Positions 1,174 through 62,560 of a stretch of 64,000 nt of DNA are shown piece by piece. The stretch is from Sclerodactyla briareus (Eukaryota; Echinodermata; Holothuroidea; Dendrochirotida; Sclerodactylidae), in contig JAODTK010005856.1 in NCBI GenBank assembly GCA_026419785.1, forward strand, positions 434,001 through 498,000, written 5' to 3'. Numbering within the stretch: position 1 is the stretch's first letter; every line of letters begins with the position of its first letter. The translations under genes were made by a program, and so were the position numbers. The notes below the pieces were generated by a model. It saw only the letters and a list, made by a program, of their open reading frames with translations. It ran no database searches and had not been told where the DNA came from.

Positions 1174-1955
1174 AGCATTCTACTTCACATAAAAATGGCA
1201 GAAATTCTTATTGAAATTTGATTTTCCAACTCAAATGAAGCCGTTTTTCCCGATTGCCGTAACGCAGCTTACCATGAACCACTGTGAATATTGTTCTGCT
1301 ATTTGGGACCCATATCACAAAACTGATATTCACAAGCTGGAAAGCATTACAAACACAGCGGCCGGATTTGCTGTTGGAAACTACTGCAAGGATTCGAGCA
1401 TTTCCAAAATTCTGAAGGACTTGGAATGGGACACCCTCCAGAATCGTCGAGTTGTATCCAGATTAACCACAATCTATAAAGAGACCCATGGAATTATTCC
1501 AAGCAATATCAGTACTTTTCGGCAGTCCTCAGGCGCACCCAGACGTCACCAGACAAGACAGACCGGGGACTTCAAGTATAACAGGATAACCACAAATAAA
1601 GCCTGCTCTACAGGTATTCCCTATACCCGAGATCTATACCCGAATGGAACTTGTTAGACATTGACATAAGAAATGCCCCTAGTATCAACTCGCTTAAATC
1701 AAAACTGGGCACCATTGATCTAAAGTGGCTCTCGGCTGAAGCCCATTTTGACATTTGATTCGTGTTTGGCTCTTGGTTGCCCACGTACGCGATAACCAGT
1801 ATGGTGTTTGTACGTGTGAAGGATACAGATACAGATACAGTGAAGGCTAGGCCGCCATGGAACGCAAATTGAGTCAAAAACCAACAATTGCTGATTTGAA
1901 CTGGAAAATTGGATTTCAATCAAAATTTCTGCAATTTTTATGTGAAGTAGAACAA
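1174..1955. mobile_element. Element with ~60-bp terminal inverted repeats, interrupted by a LINE
   Basis: Positions about 1180-1245 (TTCTACTTCACATAAAAAT, then GCAGAAATT and TTGAAAT) are repeated in inverted orientation at about 1885-1950. This gives terminal inverted repeats of roughly 60 bp with several mismatches. The interior is almost wholly a LINE 3' end. No transposase is visible. It is probably a MITE or a solo TIR element that later received the LINE. Confidence 0.6.
1254..1840 (+). mobile_element. LINE 3' end: C-terminal reverse transcriptase plus (GATACA)n tail
   Basis: The translation has the usual C-terminal sequence of Jockey/CR1/L2-type reverse transcriptases: a CEYCSAIWDPYHKTDIHKLE block, then LKDLEWDTLQNRR, then after a frameshift near 1640 a block reading WNLL..IRNAPSINSLKSKL. 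The coding part ends near 1758. It is followed by a 3' region finishing in three GATACA units near 1818-1836, a typical simple-repeat tail. It lacks the RT core and endonuclease and has at least one frameshift, so it is a 5'-truncated dead copy. It lies between the inverted repeats at 1174-1955. Confidence 0.8.
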
Positions 1956-1984
1956 CAAGAACGAATCATCTTGTTTGAGGGTCG

Positions 1985-2745
1985 GGTCAAAGGTAATCTG
2001 AGGTCAACCTCGTAAAATCTTGCTCGGTCCAATCAAGCTGAAATTTGGTGAGTAGCTTTACTATAGAAAATACAAGAACCCTATCGTTTTTGGTGCAGAC
2101 CTGGGTCATTTTTCGGAAACATGGGCGAAATTGTGTGAAAGTGATATTGGCCAATTTTAGCTTTTGAAGAGAATAACTTGACCCCACGGGGAAGAGGAAG
2201 GGAGGGAAGGGGAACCCAGGGGGGAAGGAGGGAGGAACGGGGGCGGGCCAGGCAGGCAGGGAAGCAGCCGGACAACAAGTCCCAGCCACCTGGATGGATA
2301 AATTCGTGCTTGTCATGTGGGTTCGCCATGATGAATACATGATCCCCATTGTTTTGGGGTCCGGTCAAAAGTCATCAGGTCATTAGAGGTCAAACTCTGA
2401 AAATCCTGTGAAGAGGATAAGTTCCAGAATGCTTGGTCCAATCAATCAAGCTGAAATTTGGCGTGTAGCATTCTTATGGGGAGTTCAAGAAGCCTATTGT
2501 TTTTTGTGTGGACCGGGGATCATTTTAGTGGGAATGGCTGAATTGTGAAGATAATTGATTATTTGGGCCAATTTATAGATTGTGAAGAGCATAACAACGG
2601 TCCCCACCTGGATGGATGAAGCTCGTACTTGGTATGTGGATTCCCCATAATGAATACATTATCCCTATTGTTTTGGGGTCAGGTCAAAGGTCCAGTCAGT
2701 CATCTTAGGTCAGCATAGGTCACAGTCTGCGAACCTTGTGGACAA
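1985..2745 (+). repeat. Satellite family 1 (dimeric ~150 + ~150 bp), + orientation
   Basis: Contains the recurring sentences of the family: a GGTCCAATCAAGCTGAAATT block, a CCACCTGGATGGAT block, CCCCATTGTTTTGGGGTC and GGTCAAAGGTC. The two monomer types alternate, as in the large array at 33950-36260 (opposite orientation). About two and a half dimers are present. A purine-rich (GGAGG)n segment at about 2180-2260 interrupts it. Confidence 0.8.
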
Positions 2746-2919
2746 GGTATGTCCAGAACTCCGGGTCCTATCAAGCTTTTGTTTTGGTGTTTAAACATCC
2801 TATTATCCCATTTGTTCATGTATCTGGTCATAGGGTATATACTAGAAATGATTCAAGGAATCACTAAGCCTTTTGTGGTTATGTGTGGTTATGGTTTACG
2901 TCGTTCCGGACTTTTTTAT

Positions 2920-4479: not shown

Positions 4480-4770
4480 AGAATTTGTCCGAGCAAAAAA
4501 TGTTCGGTCTGACAGTTGTTCGGGTGGGAATTGTCCAGGGTGGGAGTTTTGCCGAGGTGGCATTTGTCCATTCTCTGGATTGGAATTGGCCGTGGTAGCC
4601 GGTTGTCCGGGGTGCGAGTTGCTCGGGTGCCAATTGTCCGGGTGGAAACTGTCCAGAGTAAGAGTTGTCCAGGGTGCAAGTCGTCTGGGTGGGAATTGTC
4701 CAAGTGGGAATTGTCTGGGTGGTAGTCCTCCAGGGGAAATTATTTGGGTGGGAGTTGTCCCCCATGATCC
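4480..4770. repeat. Minisatellite, ~15-bp unit
   Basis: Variants of GTCCGGGTGGGAATT repeat about 18 times with substitutions and a few indels. Because the unit is a multiple of three, every frame stays open and gives pentapeptide-repeat ORFs on both strands. These are a by-product of the repeat, not genes. Confidence 0.85.
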
Positions 4771-12785: not shown

Positions 12786-13490
12786 CTACCTGTTTTTCGA
12801 TTCCTTGATGAAGTCAGAGGAATCTATGCAGTCATGAATGTGTGTGTGGTGTGTGTGTGTGATGCCTAGCCTTGTTAACACGATAACTCACCCGCTTGAC
12901 GGATTCACGTTCATACTTTGTATATGGGTTCCCCATAAGGACTACATGATCCTCCTATTGTTTTGGGGTCAGGTCAAAGGTCATCTGAGGTCAGAGAGGT
13001 CAAGTTTGAAAATCTTGTTAACACGATAAGTCCAGAATGCCTGGTCCGATCAGGTTGAAATTCGGTATGCAGCTTTCTCATGAGGAGTACAGGAACCCTA
13101 TTGTTTTTGGTGTAAATAGGGGGGGCAGGATTTGAGGGGAAAAATTGGGAGGAAATGTGAAAAATGATAATTTGGCCCATTTTTAGTTGTGTAAACACGA
13201 TAACTCAACCCAACCTGGAAGGATCAAGCTCAAACTTGTTATGTGGTTCTATAATGAGTAATGATCCCTATTGTTTTGGGGTCAGGTCGAAGGTCAAGAG
13301 TAGGTCAATCTGAAAAATCTTGTCAACACGATAAGTCCAGAATGCCTGGTCCGATCAGGTTGAAATTCGGTATGCAGCTTTCTCATGAGGAGTACAGGAA
13401 CCCTATTGTTTTTGGTGTAAATCGAGGGTCAATTTGTGGGGGAAATTGTGAAAAATTGATAATTTGGCCCATTTTAGCTCGTTAACACTC
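12786..13490 (+). repeat. Composite element, family 1: stem-loop, TG microsatellite, dimeric satellite
   Basis: Starts with a stem-loop (GATTCCTTGA ... TCAGAGGAATC) near 12800-12830, followed by CTATGCAGTCATG and a TG tract at 12838-12862. Tandem monomers follow. B-type monomers start AACACGATAACTC and A-type start AACACGATAAGTCCAGAATG. The A monomers at about 13020 and 13325 are nearly identical for 90 bp. The two types also align to each other through ACACGATAA, CCTGG, GATCA and CCTATTGTTTTTGG. The same layout occurs at 16150 (+), and reversed at 31810-32580 and 33950-36390. Confidence 0.85.
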
Positions 13491-16149: not shown

Positions 16150-16560
16150 AGTGCTAGATTCCTCCTTGACGAGTCAGAGGACTCTATGCAGTCATGACAG
16201 TGTGTGTGTATGTAATGTATGTACGCGGCTGTTAACACGACATCGACCCCACCTGAATGGATGAAGGCTCATACTTGGTATGTGGTTTCCCCATTCCATG
16301 ATGAGTACCTAAACCCTATTGTTCTGGGGTCGGTAGAGGTCATCAGAGGTCAAGTCTGAAAAACTTGTGAACACGGCAAGTCCAGAATGGTCCAGTCTGA
16401 TCGGCAGTACAGGAACCCTACTGTTTTTGGTGTGGGTCAGGGGTAATTTTAGTGAAAAATAGAAATAAGGAAAAGTCGATATTTTGGCCAATTTTGGCCT
16501 GTGAAGCCATGATTTTGACCCTACCTGGATGGATGGGATGAAGCTCATACATTGTAGTCA
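16150..16560 (+). repeat. Composite element, family 1, short copy
   Basis: Contains the terminal stem-loop (GATTCCTCCTTGACGAGTCA), CTATGCAGTCATGACAG, a TG-rich tract at 16199-16225, then about one and a half dimers with the standard blocks GACCCCACCTGAATGGATGA and CCCTATTGTTCTGGGGTC. It appears 3'-truncated near 16555. Confidence 0.8.
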
Positions 16561-28900: not shown

Positions 28901-29569
28901 TCGGACCGAAGCAGGTTATTTATGTTTTCGGATGTAAACTCCTCTTGATCCGACTACCAAACACTCTTATGATGGTGAAACACACTCTTAAAAACACCTT
29001 ATTTGAACTGAAAAACCATATAGAAGAAAGGTAATTTCCATCCCAGATAACCAAACGATATTGGCAACCAAAAAACCAGCAGAATATATGGACCTATTTG
29101 AAAGAGACACTGTCAAGTCCAAAATGAGTGACATGAGGTAAGTATGCTACAGGGAAAGTAAGTATCCTTTGACAGTTGGTCTGATGATGATTATGGATTT
29201 ACACTGATATGTTTGATGATGACAAATTTTAGATGTGGGGGATAATATTAGTATTGCGGTAAGTGCAGAATAGAATATTGATGTGTGGAACGATTCCAGA
29301 ATGAATCATATGCTTAATCTCGGCAAAGCTCCTTACGGACGATGTGAATGTTCTGACAGTAATCCGAAGAACTCACGACCCAAACAGTGGAACATGAGGA
29401 AATGGAAATAATAAATGTTCTGATTGATAAAATGCTTGATCTTGACTGTCAAAATCGGACTGTGTTTGTAAAACGTTCAAGGACCATTAATGGATGAGAC
29501 CATTCTATGATGAGCGTCTTACAAGATAAATGCAGGCTTGGGATTAACAAACAGAATTTGATGGAGAAT

Positions 29570-29945
29570 GGAAAACTTTATCTATAGGTCCAAACCCCAT
29601 TCAATACGATGTTCCTATTGGAGTTATTGGCCTTCAAAGTTTTGTGAACGTGAATGAAATGTGAGAAAAGTGAAATTAATGTTGTGTATATTTTCAATAG
29701 AAAACAGGAAGTTTTGCAGGGTTGTGTGATGGGATGAAAATATGACATCATTTATGATGCATGTGGGAATGCCATTTCGATCTTGCCCATACACAGCTTC
29801 ACAATACACAAAAACTTCCAAGACTATAACTCCAGAACGAAAAAGTCCTTTTTATGAAACCTCGTGTTTGGACTGACGCAGTCAGTTTCTCAGCTATTAA
29901 ATTAGACCTGTATAAGTCACCCTGCAGTTGCCCTTTCAAGATCGG
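29570..29945 (+). mobile_element. Dispersed ~600-bp repeat (MITE-like), copy 2, internal deletion
   Basis: Matches 316-885 and the reverse of 36738-37345: GGAGAATGGAAAACTTTAT at the left, AGTGAAATTAATGTTG in the middle, and CCCTGCAGTTGCCCTTT at the right. About 200 bp of the other copies are missing between roughly 29640 and 29660. Confidence 0.75.
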
Positions 29946-30649: not shown

Positions 30650-30829
30650 TTTGAACCAGAAAGCCAAAAAGCTAGTGAGTGATTCCTTGAATCTTTCTGG
30701 CAACCTAAAGCCAGACACAAGAACAAATGGAGGATTGTACCAGTCATTATGGGGAAACCAAACGTATGACAATTTCCCCAATTTCCAAACCAACCAATAG
30801 GGTGCCTAATACTCTTGATAAGATAGCCT
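30650..30829. repeat. Dispersed repeat shared with 33765-33930
   Basis: Shares GCCAAAA.GCTAGTG, GATTCCTTGA, ACACAAG, TATGGGG or CATGGGAAAC, CCAACCAA, and ACTCTTGATAAGAT with the second copy, in the same orientation. It ends exactly at the target-site duplication of the element beginning at 30831. Confidence 0.6.
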
Positions 30830-30830
30830 A

Positions 30831-31753
30831 CTAGGGATGCGCGGTACTGATGATTTGCGAAACGGTAGTACGATGCCTTGGCACTTGGATCGGTTTGTGG
30901 GGTAGCGAGTATTCAGTATGTCAGAAAAAAATCAGGGATCATTATGATTACTTGTTGATACTGTACAAAACCACACAGCTGTGTATCACCCACTGTGACA
31001 CTAGAAATTGACCGCCCCAACTAACCAGAGAGACTGTAATTTCCTCACATGTTTAAACTAACAATGGACACCTCGCGCCAACACTGCCCGAACATCGATC
31101 GAGCGAGGCAGCTGAAAGTTGATGGTACTATCTTGACAGAAAAATTCCCATGATGATAGAAAATACAGTTGTTTTTTTTTTTAGTTTGCCTCAAATTTCT
31201 GAAAATATTGAGCAATTTCAATTTTACTTGGGCGATATCCTCAGGGCAGATGAGCGGAATTCCACGCAAGTTGGAATTATCATGATCGTATCAATTTGCC
31301 CAGTGTATGTAGGAGAAATTTATTTTTTATTTAAATGGAATACTTCGTGTATGAAAACAACCACGGAACTAACGTTGGTCAGTCGATCACACGATACTTG
31401 ATAATTAACGGGGAATGACACTCAGTCTTTGAATTGGTCAACATTGATTTACTGACATGTGAAGCGAAGGAATGGTTATTTTAGTACTAGAAAATTCATT
31501 TCTATGAAAAAACATTTGATAATAGGTAAATTTAATTGCTGGAAACCATTGATGTGCGCGCGGGGCCCGACGGAAATTGACACCTAAGTACAAGCACCAG
31601 TGATTTAGCCAGAGAGAAAGTACCGGTTTTAATTTAGGCCAGCTTACCGGTAATAGTACTTGTGCATACGGCCGTCGGTACTGCGAGTACCGGTGCCTGC
31701 AGCCAGTACGGTAACTAACGTGCATATAACCGGTTATTAACCGCGAAACCCTA
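30831..31753. mobile_element. Probable non-autonomous hAT-like element
   Basis: The left end reads CTAGGGATGCGCGGTACTG; the right end, in reverse complement, reads TAGGGTTTCGCGGTTAATA, giving imperfect short terminal inverted repeats. Flanks are ATAGCCTA (30823-30830) and ATAGCTA(A) (31754-31761), an approximate 8-bp target duplication. This combination fits hAT elements. The ~920-bp interior has no transposase; its right part is rich in ACCGGT and CGGCCG palindromes. It sits in the formin intron. Confidence 0.6.
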
Positions 31754-31809
31754 ATAGCTAACATTATTTTCAAGGATGTCAGGGCTTTAACCTCTGTGAC
31801 CTCCGAAAA

Positions 31810-32580
31810 AATCGGGTTCAAATTTTTAACCCGATCGGACATCCTTTCTGTATTATCGTGTTCACAACGGTTTCAGACTTTGACCTCTGGTGATTCAGAT
31901 GACCTCTGACCTGACTCCAAAATAATAAGGTTCATGTACACATCACGGGGAACACCATCCACGTCTGAGTTCACCCTCCGGTGGTGGGCCGAGTTATCGT
32001 GTTCACCAAAGCTACGCCAAATTTGCAGAATCACACTTGACTTTTCCTCCATTTTGTTTCACAAATTTTATATTTTGACAAACTTCAACCCCCGACCTAT
32101 CCAAATAATGGGTCCCTGTACTCCCCATAAGAGAGCTACACCCCAAATTTCAACCCGATCATACCAACCATTCCTGGCTTATCATGTTCACCATGGTTTT
32201 TCTTTTTTTTCCTCTCATTTTCTCTTCTCGACCAAATTTCACCCTGACCTAATACCAAAAACATAGGTCCACATGTACTTCCTCATAAGAAAGCTCACAC
32301 TAACTAAATTGACCCGATCATCAAACCATTCTGGCTTAATCGTGGTCACATGGTTCATACTTTGACCTCTGGTGACCTCTGACTGACCCAAACAATCGGG
32401 TTCCTGTACTCATCATCGGGAACCACTGAGCTTCATTCCGTCCAGGTGGGGTCTATTCATCGTGTTTACAAGCCTGCGTTACATACACACATACATACAT
32501 CACACACACACACACACACACACACACTTCATGACTGCATAGATTCCGCTGACTTTGTCAAGGGATCAAAAAGGCACCAT
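31810..32580 (-). repeat. Composite element, family 1, reversed copy
   Basis: From left to right: A and B monomers in reverse complement (GACCTCTGGTGA, TCGTGTTCACAA, CCAGGTGGGGTC), a CA tract (about 32495-32526), CATGACTGCATAGATTCC, then the stem-loop ending GTCAAGGGATCAAAAAGGC. About two dimers are present. Confidence 0.8.
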
Positions 32581-33764: not shown

Positions 33765-33930
33765 CACCAGGAAAGCCAAAAGCTTAGTGATTCCTTGACT
33801 CTTCTGACAACACCATAGCCATACACAAGGACAATGGGAGAGGAGCTTATCATGGGAAACATATCGCTACAATTTCCATTTTTTCCCAACCAACCATAGG
33901 TTCTAGACTCTTGATAAGATGGCTACACAC
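33765..33930. repeat. Dispersed repeat, second copy
   Basis: Second copy of the repeat at 30650-30829, about 75% similar by eye. It directly precedes the large satellite array. Confidence 0.6.
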
Positions 33931-33949
33931 TTAATTTCAGGATTTTCAG

Positions 33950-36390
33950 GACTTGGCCTCTGGTTGACCCCAAAACAATAGGGTTTCTGTACTTCATCAT
34001 GAACTCGGACATGGACCCCAAACAATAGGTTCATGTACTCATAATGGGGAAACTCAAATACCAAGTAGGAGCTTTATCCCTCTAGGTGGGGTCAAGTTAT
34101 CGTGTTCACAAGCCGAAATGGGCCAAAATATTGACTTTTCACAAAATTTTTCTATTTTTCACGAAATTTCACCCCCGACCTAAACCAGAAACCATAGGGT
34201 TCATGTACTCACCATAAGAACACTACACACCAAATTTGAACTGATCGGATCAGATATTCTGGACTTATCGTGTTCACAAGGTTTTCAGACCTTGACCTCT
34301 GGTGACCTCAGATGACCTCTGACCTGACCCCAAAACATAGGGTTCATGTAATCATATGGGGAACAGACACATACCAAGTATGAGACTCATGCCTCCAGGT
34401 GGGGTCAAGGTTATCGTGTTCACAAGCCGAAATGGGCCAAAATAGTGACTTTTTCACAAATTTTTCTTTTCATGAAATTCACCCCGACCTTACCAGAAAC
34501 AATAGGTTCCATGTACTCCCCATAAGAACGCTACAAACCAAATTTGACCTGTCAGACCAACCATTCTGGACTTATCGTGTCACAAGGTTTTCAGACCTTG
34601 ACCTCTGGTGACCTCAGATGACCTCGAACCTGACACCCCAAAACAATAGGGTTAATGTTACTTCAGTTTATGGGGAAACAACACATACCAAGTATGAGCG
34701 TCATCCATCCAGGTGGGGTCAAGTTATCGTGTTCACAAGCAAAATGGGCCAAAATATGACTTTTCACAAATTTCTAATTTTTCACAAAAATTCACCCCGA
34801 CCTTACCAGAAACAATAGGGTTCCTGTACTCCCCATAAGAAAGCTACACACTAAATTTGAACCTGATCAGACCAACCAATCTGGACTTATCATGTTCAAC
34901 AGGTTTTCGACGGGACCGCTGGTGACCTCAAGATGACCTCGACTGAGCCCCAAAACAATAGGGTTCATGTACTCATCAGGGGGAACACCACATACCATAT
35001 GAGCTTCATCCATCCAGGTGGGGTCACGTTATCAGGTTCACTAGCCAAATTGGCCAAATTAATAACTTTTCAAAATTTCCTATTTTTGACCAAAATTCAC
35101 CTATGACAGATACCAGAAACAATAGGCATCCTGTAATCCCCATAAGAACGCTACACACCAATTTTGCACCTGATCAGACCAACCAATCTGGACTTATCAT
35201 GTTCAACAGGTTTTCGACGGGACCGCTGGTGACCTCAAGATGACCTCGACTGAGCCCCAAAACAATAGGGTTCATGTACTCATCAGGGGGAACACCACAT
35301 ACCATATGAGCTTCATCCATCCAGGTGGGGTCACGTTATCAGGTTCACTAGCCAAATTGGCCAAATTAATAACTTTTCAAAATTTCCTATTTTTGACCAA
35401 AATTCACCTATGACAGATACCAGAAACAATAGGCATCCTGTAATCCCCATAAGAACGCTACACACCAATTTTGCACTCTGATCAGACCAAACATTCGGGA
35501 CTTATCCTGTTCACAAGGTTTTCAGACTTGACCTCTGGTGACCTCAGATGAACCTCTGACCTGACCCCAAAAACAATAGGGTTCATGTACTCACATGGGG
35601 AACAACATACCAATATGAGCTTCATCCATCCAGGTGGGGTCAAGTATCGTGTTTAACAAGCCCAAAATTGGCCAAATTATTAACTTCCAATTCGCCTATT
35701 TTTGACCAAATTCACCCCGACCTATACAAGAAACATAGGGTTCTGCTACTCCCCATAAGAAAACTACACACCAAATTTAAACCTGATCAGACCAAAAAAC
35801 CATTATGGACTTATGTGTTCACAAGGTTTTCAGATTGACTCTGGTGGCTCCGATGACCTATGACCTGACACAAAACAATAGGGTTATGTTACTCATCTGG
35901 GGACACACATACCAAGTATGAGCTTATCATCCAGGTGGGGTCAAGTTATCGTGTTCAAAGCCAACATTGGCCAAATTATTAACTTTTCACAAAATGCCCT
36001 ATTTTTGACCAAAAATTCACCCCGACCTAATTACTAGAAACAAAGGGTCTGTACTCCCTATAAGAAAGCTACACACCAAAGTTTAAACCTGATCAGACAA
36101 ACACTTCTGGGACTTATTGTGTTCACAAGGTTTTCAGACAGTGACCTCTGTGACCTCAGATGACCTCTGACATGACCCCAAAACACTAGGTTCAGTACTC
36201 ATAATGGGGAACACACATACGTAGTATGAGCTTATCCATCCAGGTGGGGTCGGTTATCGTGTTCACAGCCAGCGTTACTACACACACACACAAACCACAC
36301 ACACGCACACACACACACCACACACACACTGTGTCGACTGCATAGATTCCTCTGACTTCGTCAAGAGAATCAAACAACAGGTGTGATTTT
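33950..36390 (-). repeat. Composite element, family 1: large array, about eight ~307-bp dimers
   Basis: The block CCAGGTGGGGTCA recurs near 34085, 34396, 34711, 35020, 35322, 35630, 35932 and 36240, a period of 302-314 bp. Each unit holds two diverged ~150-bp monomers, both opening on TTATCGTGTTCAC. The array ends in a CA tract (about 36270-36330), then GACTGCATAGATTCCTCTGA and CTTCGTCAAGAGAATCAAA, a stem-loop. It occupies the intron between the formin GNYMNG and GNRTRG exons. No ORF is supported. Confidence 0.9.
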
Positions 36391-36737: not shown

Positions 36738-37345
36738 AAGCTTTAAAGGACTGACAGGATGGATTATACAAGGGCTAATTTAATCGCTGGATAAAAAATG
36801 AATGCATCAGCCCAAACCCGGAGTTCATAGGACTTTCCCGCTATAGTTATAGTAATTTAAAGTGTGTGTATTGTGAAGCTTGTGTATGCGCAAGATCGAA
36901 ATTGCATCCCATCATGCATATGAATGATGTCATACTTTTGCAAACCCTGCAAACATTCTTTGTTGTCCATTGGAATTCAAACATTAAATTTCAATTCGAA
37001 AAGCTTTTAGGTCCATGGGAGAGGATTTCTGTAGTGGGTTGGTAGGTGTGGATGGGCTATTTGGTGAGAGATACAACAGAAATCATGCTATAATGTTGAC
37101 TTTTCAACAAATGAAACAATCAATACTCAATAAAATCATATTTCTGTGTTGGTCCATGTGTGACGGTCATGCATTATTGTGCAATTAGGAGTCTCCCAAT
37201 TCTCTGCCTAATGGCCAAAACCTTGAAGGCAGAACTCCACATAGGGACCTCGTATTGAAATGGGGGTTAGACCAATAGATACAGTTTTCCATTCTCCACG
37301 TATAACCTCTGTTGTATCCAAGCCTGCAGTTGTCCTTTAATGCCC
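36738..37345 (-). mobile_element. Dispersed ~600-bp MITE-like repeat, copy 3, with both ends
   Basis: The best-preserved copy. The left end TTTAAAGGACTGACAGG and right end CCTGCAGTTGTCCTTTAA are inverted repeats (AGGAC core). Flanking TTAA at both sides is compatible with a TTAA target, as in piggyBac-type MITEs, but TTAA could equally be part of the terminal repeats. No coding capacity. Confidence 0.7.
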
Positions 37346-61259: not shown

Positions 61260-62560
61260 TATGGGATGGTGACACTCGGGTGATATAAGCACTGAGTATT
61301 ATAGGGGACACTTCTTCAATGCTGATCATGAGCCAGTATAGTGACACTCCTTCAATAATGAGCAGTATAGTGACACTTCTCCAATACTGAGCACTGAGCA
61401 GTATATTGACACTTCCTCAATACTGAGCACTGAGCAGTATAGTGACCCTTTCTTTAATACTGGCATGAGCAGTATTAACGTGAACTTCTCCAATACTGAG
61501 CACTGCACAATATAGTGAAACGTTTCTATACTGGCACTGAGCAGTATAGTGATACTCCTTAATACTGAGCACTGAGTAGTATTCTATGAAACTTCTTCAT
61601 TTACTGAGCAGTTATAGTGACACTTCTGTGATACGAGCATGAGAAGCATAGTGACACTTCTTTAAAGAAGGAGCACTGAGCAGTATAGTTGGACACTGCT
61701 TTAATACTGAGCTCTGAGCAGTATAGGACACTTCTTTAATACGGAGCAGTGATAGTGACACTCTTTAATACTAGCACTGAGAGTATATGGACACTTCTTA
61801 ATACTGAGCAGTAAGTATAGAGACACTTTTATCAATACTGAGCAGTTATAGTGACACTTCTTTAATACTTAGTACTGAGCAGTATATTGACACTTCTTTA
61901 ATACTGAGCAGTATATTGAAACTTCTTTAATTACTGAGCACTGAGCAAAACTTTTTTAACATTCTCTAATATGAGCAGTATAGTGACACTCCGGTAATAC
62001 TTGCACTGGAGGCAGTATAGTGAACACTTCTTCAATACTGAGCAGTATATTGGACACGTCTTTAAATAATGAGCACTGAGCAGATATTAACATTCTCTTA
62101 ATCTTGAGCAGTATATTGACCTGCTTTATATGAGCACTGAGCAGTATATTGACACTCCTTTTATTTAGCACTAGCAGTTATCTTGATAATTCCTCAATAC
62201 CGAGCACTGAGCAGTATATTGACACTTCTATATGAGCACTTTGAGGCGTATATTGAACTCTTTCTTTATATGAGCCGATACTAACACTTCTCTAATATTG
62301 AGCAGTATATGGACCCTTCCTTAATACTGAGCAGTATATTGCACTTCTTACTATTTAGATGAGCAGTCTCTTGAGACTTCACAAATAGGAGCAATGGAGC
62401 ATATATTGACACTTCTTATATTGAGCACTGAGCAGTATATTGACTCTTCTTTAAAACAGACCTAAGCAGTAACATTGACACATTCTTTAACCGGCACTGA
62501 GCAGTATATTGACACTCCTTTGATACTGAACAGAACGGAGACACTTCTTCAAAACTGAGC
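61260..62560. repeat. Minisatellite array, ~36-bp unit, roughly 35 copies
   Basis: Units read AATACTGAGCACTGAGCAGT followed by ATAGTGACACTTCTTT, with frequent one-base indels and some shortened units (about 20-25 bp, lacking the AGCACTG part). ATACTG and CAGTAT in each unit are complementary, so single strands can fold into serial 6-bp hairpins. The minus-strand dodecapeptide-repeat frames (SIYCSVLSIGEV type) result from the 36-bp period. Confidence 0.92.

Follow-up and report, generated by a model that had tools for sequence, protein, structure and literature searches.

The closest described systems come from oysters and flies. The Cg_HINE elements of Crassostrea gigas (Vojvoda Zeljko et al. 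2020, PMC7492417) are reported to form clusters that each hold between 140 and 1,397 arrays, and the account of DINE-1/HINE elements and Helentrons by Thomas et al. (2014, PMC4067079) describes a group for which an autonomous partner is known and cites the sea urchin Tsp transposons (Cohen et al. 1985) as DINE-1-like elements with tandem repeats. Bivalve elements of the Pearl/BIV160 type are described as carrying tandem repeats of ~160 bp in short arrays (PMC5139131, PMC11136912). Pearl and similar elements were first called MITEs (PMC7492417, PMC4067079), and in oysters the array has been annotated as satellite, with the ends left unclassified (PMC11136912).

The window analysed here, a 64,000-nucleotide stretch of Sclerodactyla briareus DNA, contains repeated blocks that appear to be degraded copies of a non-coding transposable element, with a short satellite array held between two fixed ends. 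Reading inwards from the left, a T-run is followed by GATTCCTTGAC-GAA-GTCAGAGGAATC-TATGCAGTCATGACA-(GT)n and then the array; GTCAGAGGAATC is the inverted partner (IR) of GATTCCTTGAC, and the two could form a short hairpin with a 3-base loop. The internal unit is 307 bp long and consists of two diverged ~150-bp monomers, the number of units varying among copies. The right end carries GTCAAGGAATC, which repeats the 11-bp subterminal sequence GATTCCTTGAC of the left end in inverted form, then an AAGCC-TTTT-GGCTT palindrome with a 5-bp stem and the terminus CTGGTT. All of the testable structural marks of HINE are present in the consensus, each of them in part of the copies, and the family very probably belongs to the non-autonomous Helentron-type (HINE) transposons. 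Because it so closely matches the elements described from oysters and flies, it counts as a new family within a known type, unremarkable in its general plan and sharply delimited in its details, and our literature search returned no description that we recognised as this family. The elements known to move satellite DNA through genomes thereby gain a well-bounded family for which both termini and empty sites are available; repeat annotation would otherwise tend to label the array as satellite and leave both ends unclassified.

With Cg_HINE, as described in PMC7492417, the family shares a 5' subTIR of 11-12 bp, a complementary IR after a short gap, a microsatellite, a central satellite-like array in fixed orientation, a right flank that holds the 3' subTIR and a palindrome, insertion into T-rich sites with no duplication of the target, and occurrence in both orientations. 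The microsatellite is GT here, whereas several Cg_HINE have GTCY-like units, and the 307-bp dimer of ~150-bp monomers compares, by layout, with Cg_HINE consensus monomers of 138-181 bp (PMC7492417). Common to this family and DINE-1/HINE elements are the subTIRs, the inverted partner near the 5' subTIR, the microsatellite, the optional tandem repeats, the 3' palindrome, the TT or T-rich target and an unclear number of terminal Ts; the distance from the 3' subTIR to the end is 38-60 bp in the mite families of that account and 23 bp in the copy that we call D (PMC4067079). The bivalve Pearl (CvA, CvE, CvG), DTC84 and BIV160/Cg170 elements are, by description, likewise modular with fixed flanks (PMC5139131, PMC11136912). 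Viral contigs gave no exact match to the left or right motif, to a satellite motif or to a stretch of the unit, phages gave none either, and a 16-base satellite motif was absent from the literature text searched. Among genome contigs a 20-base satellite motif matched once, in Pseudoalteromonas, which is about the chance level estimated from the size of the collection. The GACCCC motifs may resemble those of bivalve Pearl/BIV160-type satellites.

Within the window, a 20-base left-end motif matches four times with at most three mismatches (at 12815 and 16175 on the minus strand and at 32532 and 36335 on the plus strand), where shuffled sequence gives a mean of 0.01 matches (100 shuffles), and each match leads into a CA/GT tract, beyond which lies satellite of one family. 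The satellite unit is found by nhmmer at all four places and also at 1970-2803. At 34014-36271 Tandem Repeats Finder reports a 307-bp unit repeated 7.3 times, and aligning one half of this unit to the other gives a local score of 71, where the highest of 1000 shuffles reaches 35. The preliminary description had proposed just such a layout shared by four or more places in both orientations, with a dimeric satellite in units of ~307 bp, and all of this holds. In the four window copies with a left end the array has an identical orientation relative to that end and starts in an identical register. As the order from hairpin to array is that of the published Cg_HINE left flank, the hairpin marks the left side of the element, and a right end carrying an inverted subTIR is to be expected. 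The stem-loop noted earlier is a fixed end, with a hairpin formed by the 5' subTIR and its inverted partner rather than a 3' terminal hairpin, and the 3' end is on the satellite side. The four places had been located correctly and their extent had been set too short: the right end lies outside the satellite, and the elements therefore run past the earlier coordinates, to 33766 in copy D and 30654 in copy C.

Copy D (33766..36371, minus strand, 2,606 bp) is complete. Its left end (36345..36371, minus) comprises the 5' subTIR at 36371-36360 and the IR at 36356-36345, with TTT just outside, and is followed by a (GT)n microsatellite ((AC)n on the plus strand) at 36280..36329 and by an array of seven 307-bp dimeric units plus part of another at 33939..36272, both on the minus strand. 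The units, as split here, are 66-90% alike, and two neighbours are 98% alike, ungapped, over 300 bases. The right end (33766..33923, minus) directly adjoins the array and holds a worn monomer remnant, the 3' subTIR GTCAAGGAATC at 33799-33789, an AAGC..GCTT palindrome at 33785-33773 and the terminus CTGGT. Copy C (30654..32567, minus) is complete but interrupted, with its left end at 32567 and its right end at 30654-30827 (3' subTIR core at 30681..30690, minus), parted from its own array by ~0.93 kb. The interruption is an insert (30829..31757, minus) with inverted ends TAGGG(T/A)T(T/G)CGCGGT, flanked by TTAGCTAT and GTAGGCTAT, for which copy D supplies the uninterrupted sequence, or empty site. 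We take this nested insert to be a putative hAT-like element.

The other window copies are incomplete. Copy A (12799..13490, plus) has a left end with its hairpin at 12799-12824, a GT tract and ~2 units, and copy B (16157..16560, plus) has a left end, a GT tract and ~1 unit; right ends for these two were sought in the window and not found. Copy E (1970..2879, plus) lacks a left end and consists of an array at 1970-2803, after which comes a right end with its 3' subTIR core at 2853-2862. The satellite of copy E is broken up at 2188-2285 by a G/A-rich stretch unlike its surroundings. Beside copy E lies another repeat (1165-1965), ~800 bp between 72-base inverted repeats that are 82% complementary, with an open frame at 1193-1654 that by eye resembles the C-terminus of a non-LTR retrotransposon and has no Pfam hit; the element of locus L016 has inserted into this repeat. 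In the 91 of 252 window frames of at least 60 aa that were scanned with Pfam there are two weak hits (FH2 and PRIMA1, best E 0.0008) and no transposase.

Beyond the window, the left motif has 1,899 matches with at most two mismatches in the 319-Mb assembly (952 forward and 947 reverse), compared with 1 + 0 for its reversed control, and the right motif has 2,147 (1081 + 1066), compared with 17 (7 + 10) for its control. The genome holds roughly two thousand copies. For the structure of the ends we aligned 29 left and 25 right ends, from 20 fetched copies, one further locus and the window copies. The fetched loci L010-L029 come from the first 100 places listed of the 1,899 matches and were chosen for the room around them on their contigs; all are exact motif matches, which biases the sample towards better-preserved copies. 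L003 was also used, and L002 and L004-L009 were left out because they overlap with L010-L029. Both sets align to sharp edges, and the flanks of the sampled copies differ. The consensus is TTTTT|GATTCCTTGACGAAGTCAGAGGAATCTATGCAGTCATGACAG on the left (n=29) and GTTGTCAGAAAGAGTCAAGGAATCACTAAGCCTTTTGGCTTTCTGGTT on the right (n=25).

On the left, the 5' subTIR GATTCCTTGAC of the consensus, whose 11 bp fall in the range of 11-15 bp for HINE elements, is present within one mismatch in 16 of the 29 ends and the IR GTCAGAGGAATC in 25, and (GT)5 or longer lies beside 20, with satellite units between the ends. On the right, the 3' subTIR GTCAAGGAATC is present within one mismatch in 19 of the 25 ends, the consensus palindrome AAGCC-TTTT-GGCTT is exact in nine and in a looser form in 12, and CTGG stands at the edge in 15, with T as the next base in 14 of these. 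After 22 of the 29 left ends a right end is what comes next, on the same strand and no more than 6 kb away, giving lengths from 265 to 5,352 bp; the longest pair, L026 at 5.35 kb, probably spans two worn copies. Among the seven unpaired left ends are L029:455 and L003, with little or limited downstream sequence, and copies A and B. Two variants of the ends seem mostly to go together, to judge from simple sequence patterns: both ends could be scored in 10 of 21 elements and eight of the 10 agree, three of them CACGTCG-like with GACAGAAAC and five CATGA with GTCAGAAAG-like ends, with L012 and L028 disagreeing.

The three right ends in the window align with one another over ~85 bases and share a stop at TGGT. 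The core TCAAGGAATC occurs exactly at 2853 (plus), 30681 (minus) and 33789 (minus), besides the left end of copy A at 12799, and in all three right ends this 10-base core of the 3' subTIR is the exact inverse of the copy A left end, a match reached by 1, 0 and 1 of 5000 shuffles and by 0, 1 and 10 of 5000 random 16-mers from the window. If one mismatch is allowed, the window holds 7 matches to the core where 6.5 are expected, which is no enrichment. As for folding, the left hairpin of copy A is clearly better than its shuffles (z -2.1), the values for B, D and C are -1.0, 0.4 and 1.2, and the three window right ends fold no better than shuffles (z 0.2, -0.8 and -0.4). With moderate confidence, the inner part of the right end may be read as a worn remnant of a satellite monomer, still in register; the remnant score is reached by 4 of 500 shuffles for copy D and by 15 of 500 for copy C.

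Insertion takes place beside a T-run, and the target is not duplicated except for Ts. Directly before the left end there are at least three Ts in 20 of the 29 copies and at least four in 18, compared with 3.1% and 1.2% of random sites (n=10,964), and nine of the 29 have fewer than three. The longest T-run in the 22 bases before the anchor was rejected as a biased measure, as 13% of random stretches reach four Ts. To look for empty sites, we joined the two flanks of each of the 22 pairs and searched them against the fetched loci and the window. This gave eight spanning rows from seven queries; three of these queries, L012 and the two L013 elements, had hit their own flanks and were set aside, and the length and chimera of the second L013 element were excluded from use. 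An empty paralogue across the junction remains for four of the 22 queries. That of the L016 insertion lies in the window at 1837..1962 (minus), 81% alike over 129 bases with the junction at TTTT, and the other three are neighbouring copies of host repeats within the same locus, 72-84% alike: L028 in an adjoining host repeat (two rows, 75% and 72%), and L015 (84%) and L019 (74%) in repeats of their own loci. All four have Ts at the junction, then C or G, with no target duplication, and the filled sites hold 2-4 more Ts than the empty ones, counting both sides.

The mobility of the family is supported by these empty sites together with constant edges on both sides and motif matches on both strands, as the preliminary description had supposed; it had asked whether a constant edge on the satellite side and empty insertion sites exist, and both are present. 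It is hardly credible that a local satellite was scattered by ectopic recombination, with its flanks common through segmental duplication. Unit number does vary, and near-identical neighbours such as those of copy D are usual in satellite arrays, but the edges are constant at ~2,000 places on both strands, flanks differ among the sampled copies, and the empty sites refute this account unless they are deletions. A cut-and-paste MITE, a terminal inverted repeat transposon carrying tandem repeats, is very improbable: an 11-bp inverted repeat is present at both ends, but the right one is subterminal, the outermost bases GATTCC and CTGGTT are not inverted, and the four empty sites have no target duplication beyond the Ts.

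A relationship to Helitrons, already suggested in the preliminary description, is upheld by the constant edges on both sides, the ~2,000 motif matches on both strands and the four empty sites. Within that relationship, a derivative of canonical Helitrons, with a CTRR end, A/T insertion and a terminal hairpin, appears unlikely. The CTGG and following T of the satellite-side 3' terminus do fit CTRR, an end that the preliminary description had not seen, and a palindrome lies just inside; it directly adjoins the CTGG edge here, against ~11 bp inside CTRR in canonical Helitrons. There is, however, no 5' TC, as had been observed before, the left edge of the consensus being T-run|GATTCC. The left flank is a T-run and not A, and the empty-site junctions are not A/T, and the A-T insertion point that the preliminary description proposed to look for gives way to insertion at a T-run. 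PMC4067079 ascribes subTIRs and a left-end inverted partner to Helentrons but not to canonical Helitrons.

For a HINE family, a plausible scenario is that the Rep/helicase of an autonomous Helentron, supplied in trans, would recognise the ends of the element, that one strand would be copied by rolling circle starting from the left end and stopping at the right-end palindrome, and that the product would be pasted into T-rich DNA. The satellite array would be passive cargo, growing or shrinking by unequal exchange or slippage. We infer both the enzyme and the rolling-circle movement from the Helentron family. A Rep/helicase between matching element ends was not found in the stretches examined, which contain Rep-like and helicase-like fragments only. 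The PF14214 (Helitron_like_N) profile has at least three matches at two places in the assembly. One of these, the C2413 frame (L033:4098-5076; Helitron_like_N, 3.2e-9), is continued in another frame and lies on the same strand 1.2 kb to the left of a full element copy, outside the left-right pair; since no matching ends enclose it, we regard it as a hint rather than as the partner. A search with the protein of this frame found only itself. Endonuclease-like words can be seen by eye after the Rep frames at L033:4098-5076. The PIF1 profile has at least one match, with two stops inside, and no left or right ends were found in its 3.3-kb locus. These Rep-like and helicase-like pieces may be relics, may contain introns or may have been disrupted by assembly errors.

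A more complex arrangement is seen at L013:953-6567, where two elements with similar end variants abut head to tail as CTGG-TT-G(A)TTCC, with one base absent. The corresponding two-T junction pattern occurs at 12 places genome-wide (at most three mismatches; control 0), of which, by eye, five are a right end against a left end, including one, C207, with the right motif beside it, and four have host-like T-runs. A five-T pattern occurs at nine places (control 0), which are mixed, one being the host flank of L016. Since L013 and about five similar places have abutting CTGG-TT-GATTCC, the two terminal Ts may belong to the element, and insertion side by side would give the same junction. A fresh concatemer at L013 was considered and is not established, because the neighbours are 77% alike and each is closer to L010; one copy inserted into the terminal TT of another explains the junction equally well.

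In the right-end consensus, a stem can form between CAGAAA, which precedes the 3' subTIR, and TTTCTG, which follows the palindrome, and the palindrome AAGCC/GGCTT shares part of its bases with this stem. It is conceivable, although quite unlikely, that the competing stems act as a termination switch, in which failure of the inner hairpin would lead to read-through and to head-to-tail copies joined as CTGG-TT-GATTCC. If so, one end would govern both single insertion and the growth of concatemers. Were the head-to-tail copies rolling-circle products, they would provide natural circle-junction sequences for a class in which terminal Ts are hard to assign.

Among the various other repeats in the window, we note a dispersed repeat in three copies (306-880, 29519-29940 and 36750-37312), 71-83% alike and in both orientations, a strongly worn minisatellite at 61288-62532 with ~30-36-bp units around TGAGCAGTATAGTGACACTTC, and a 15-bp tandem repeat in 7.7 copies at 4603-4721.
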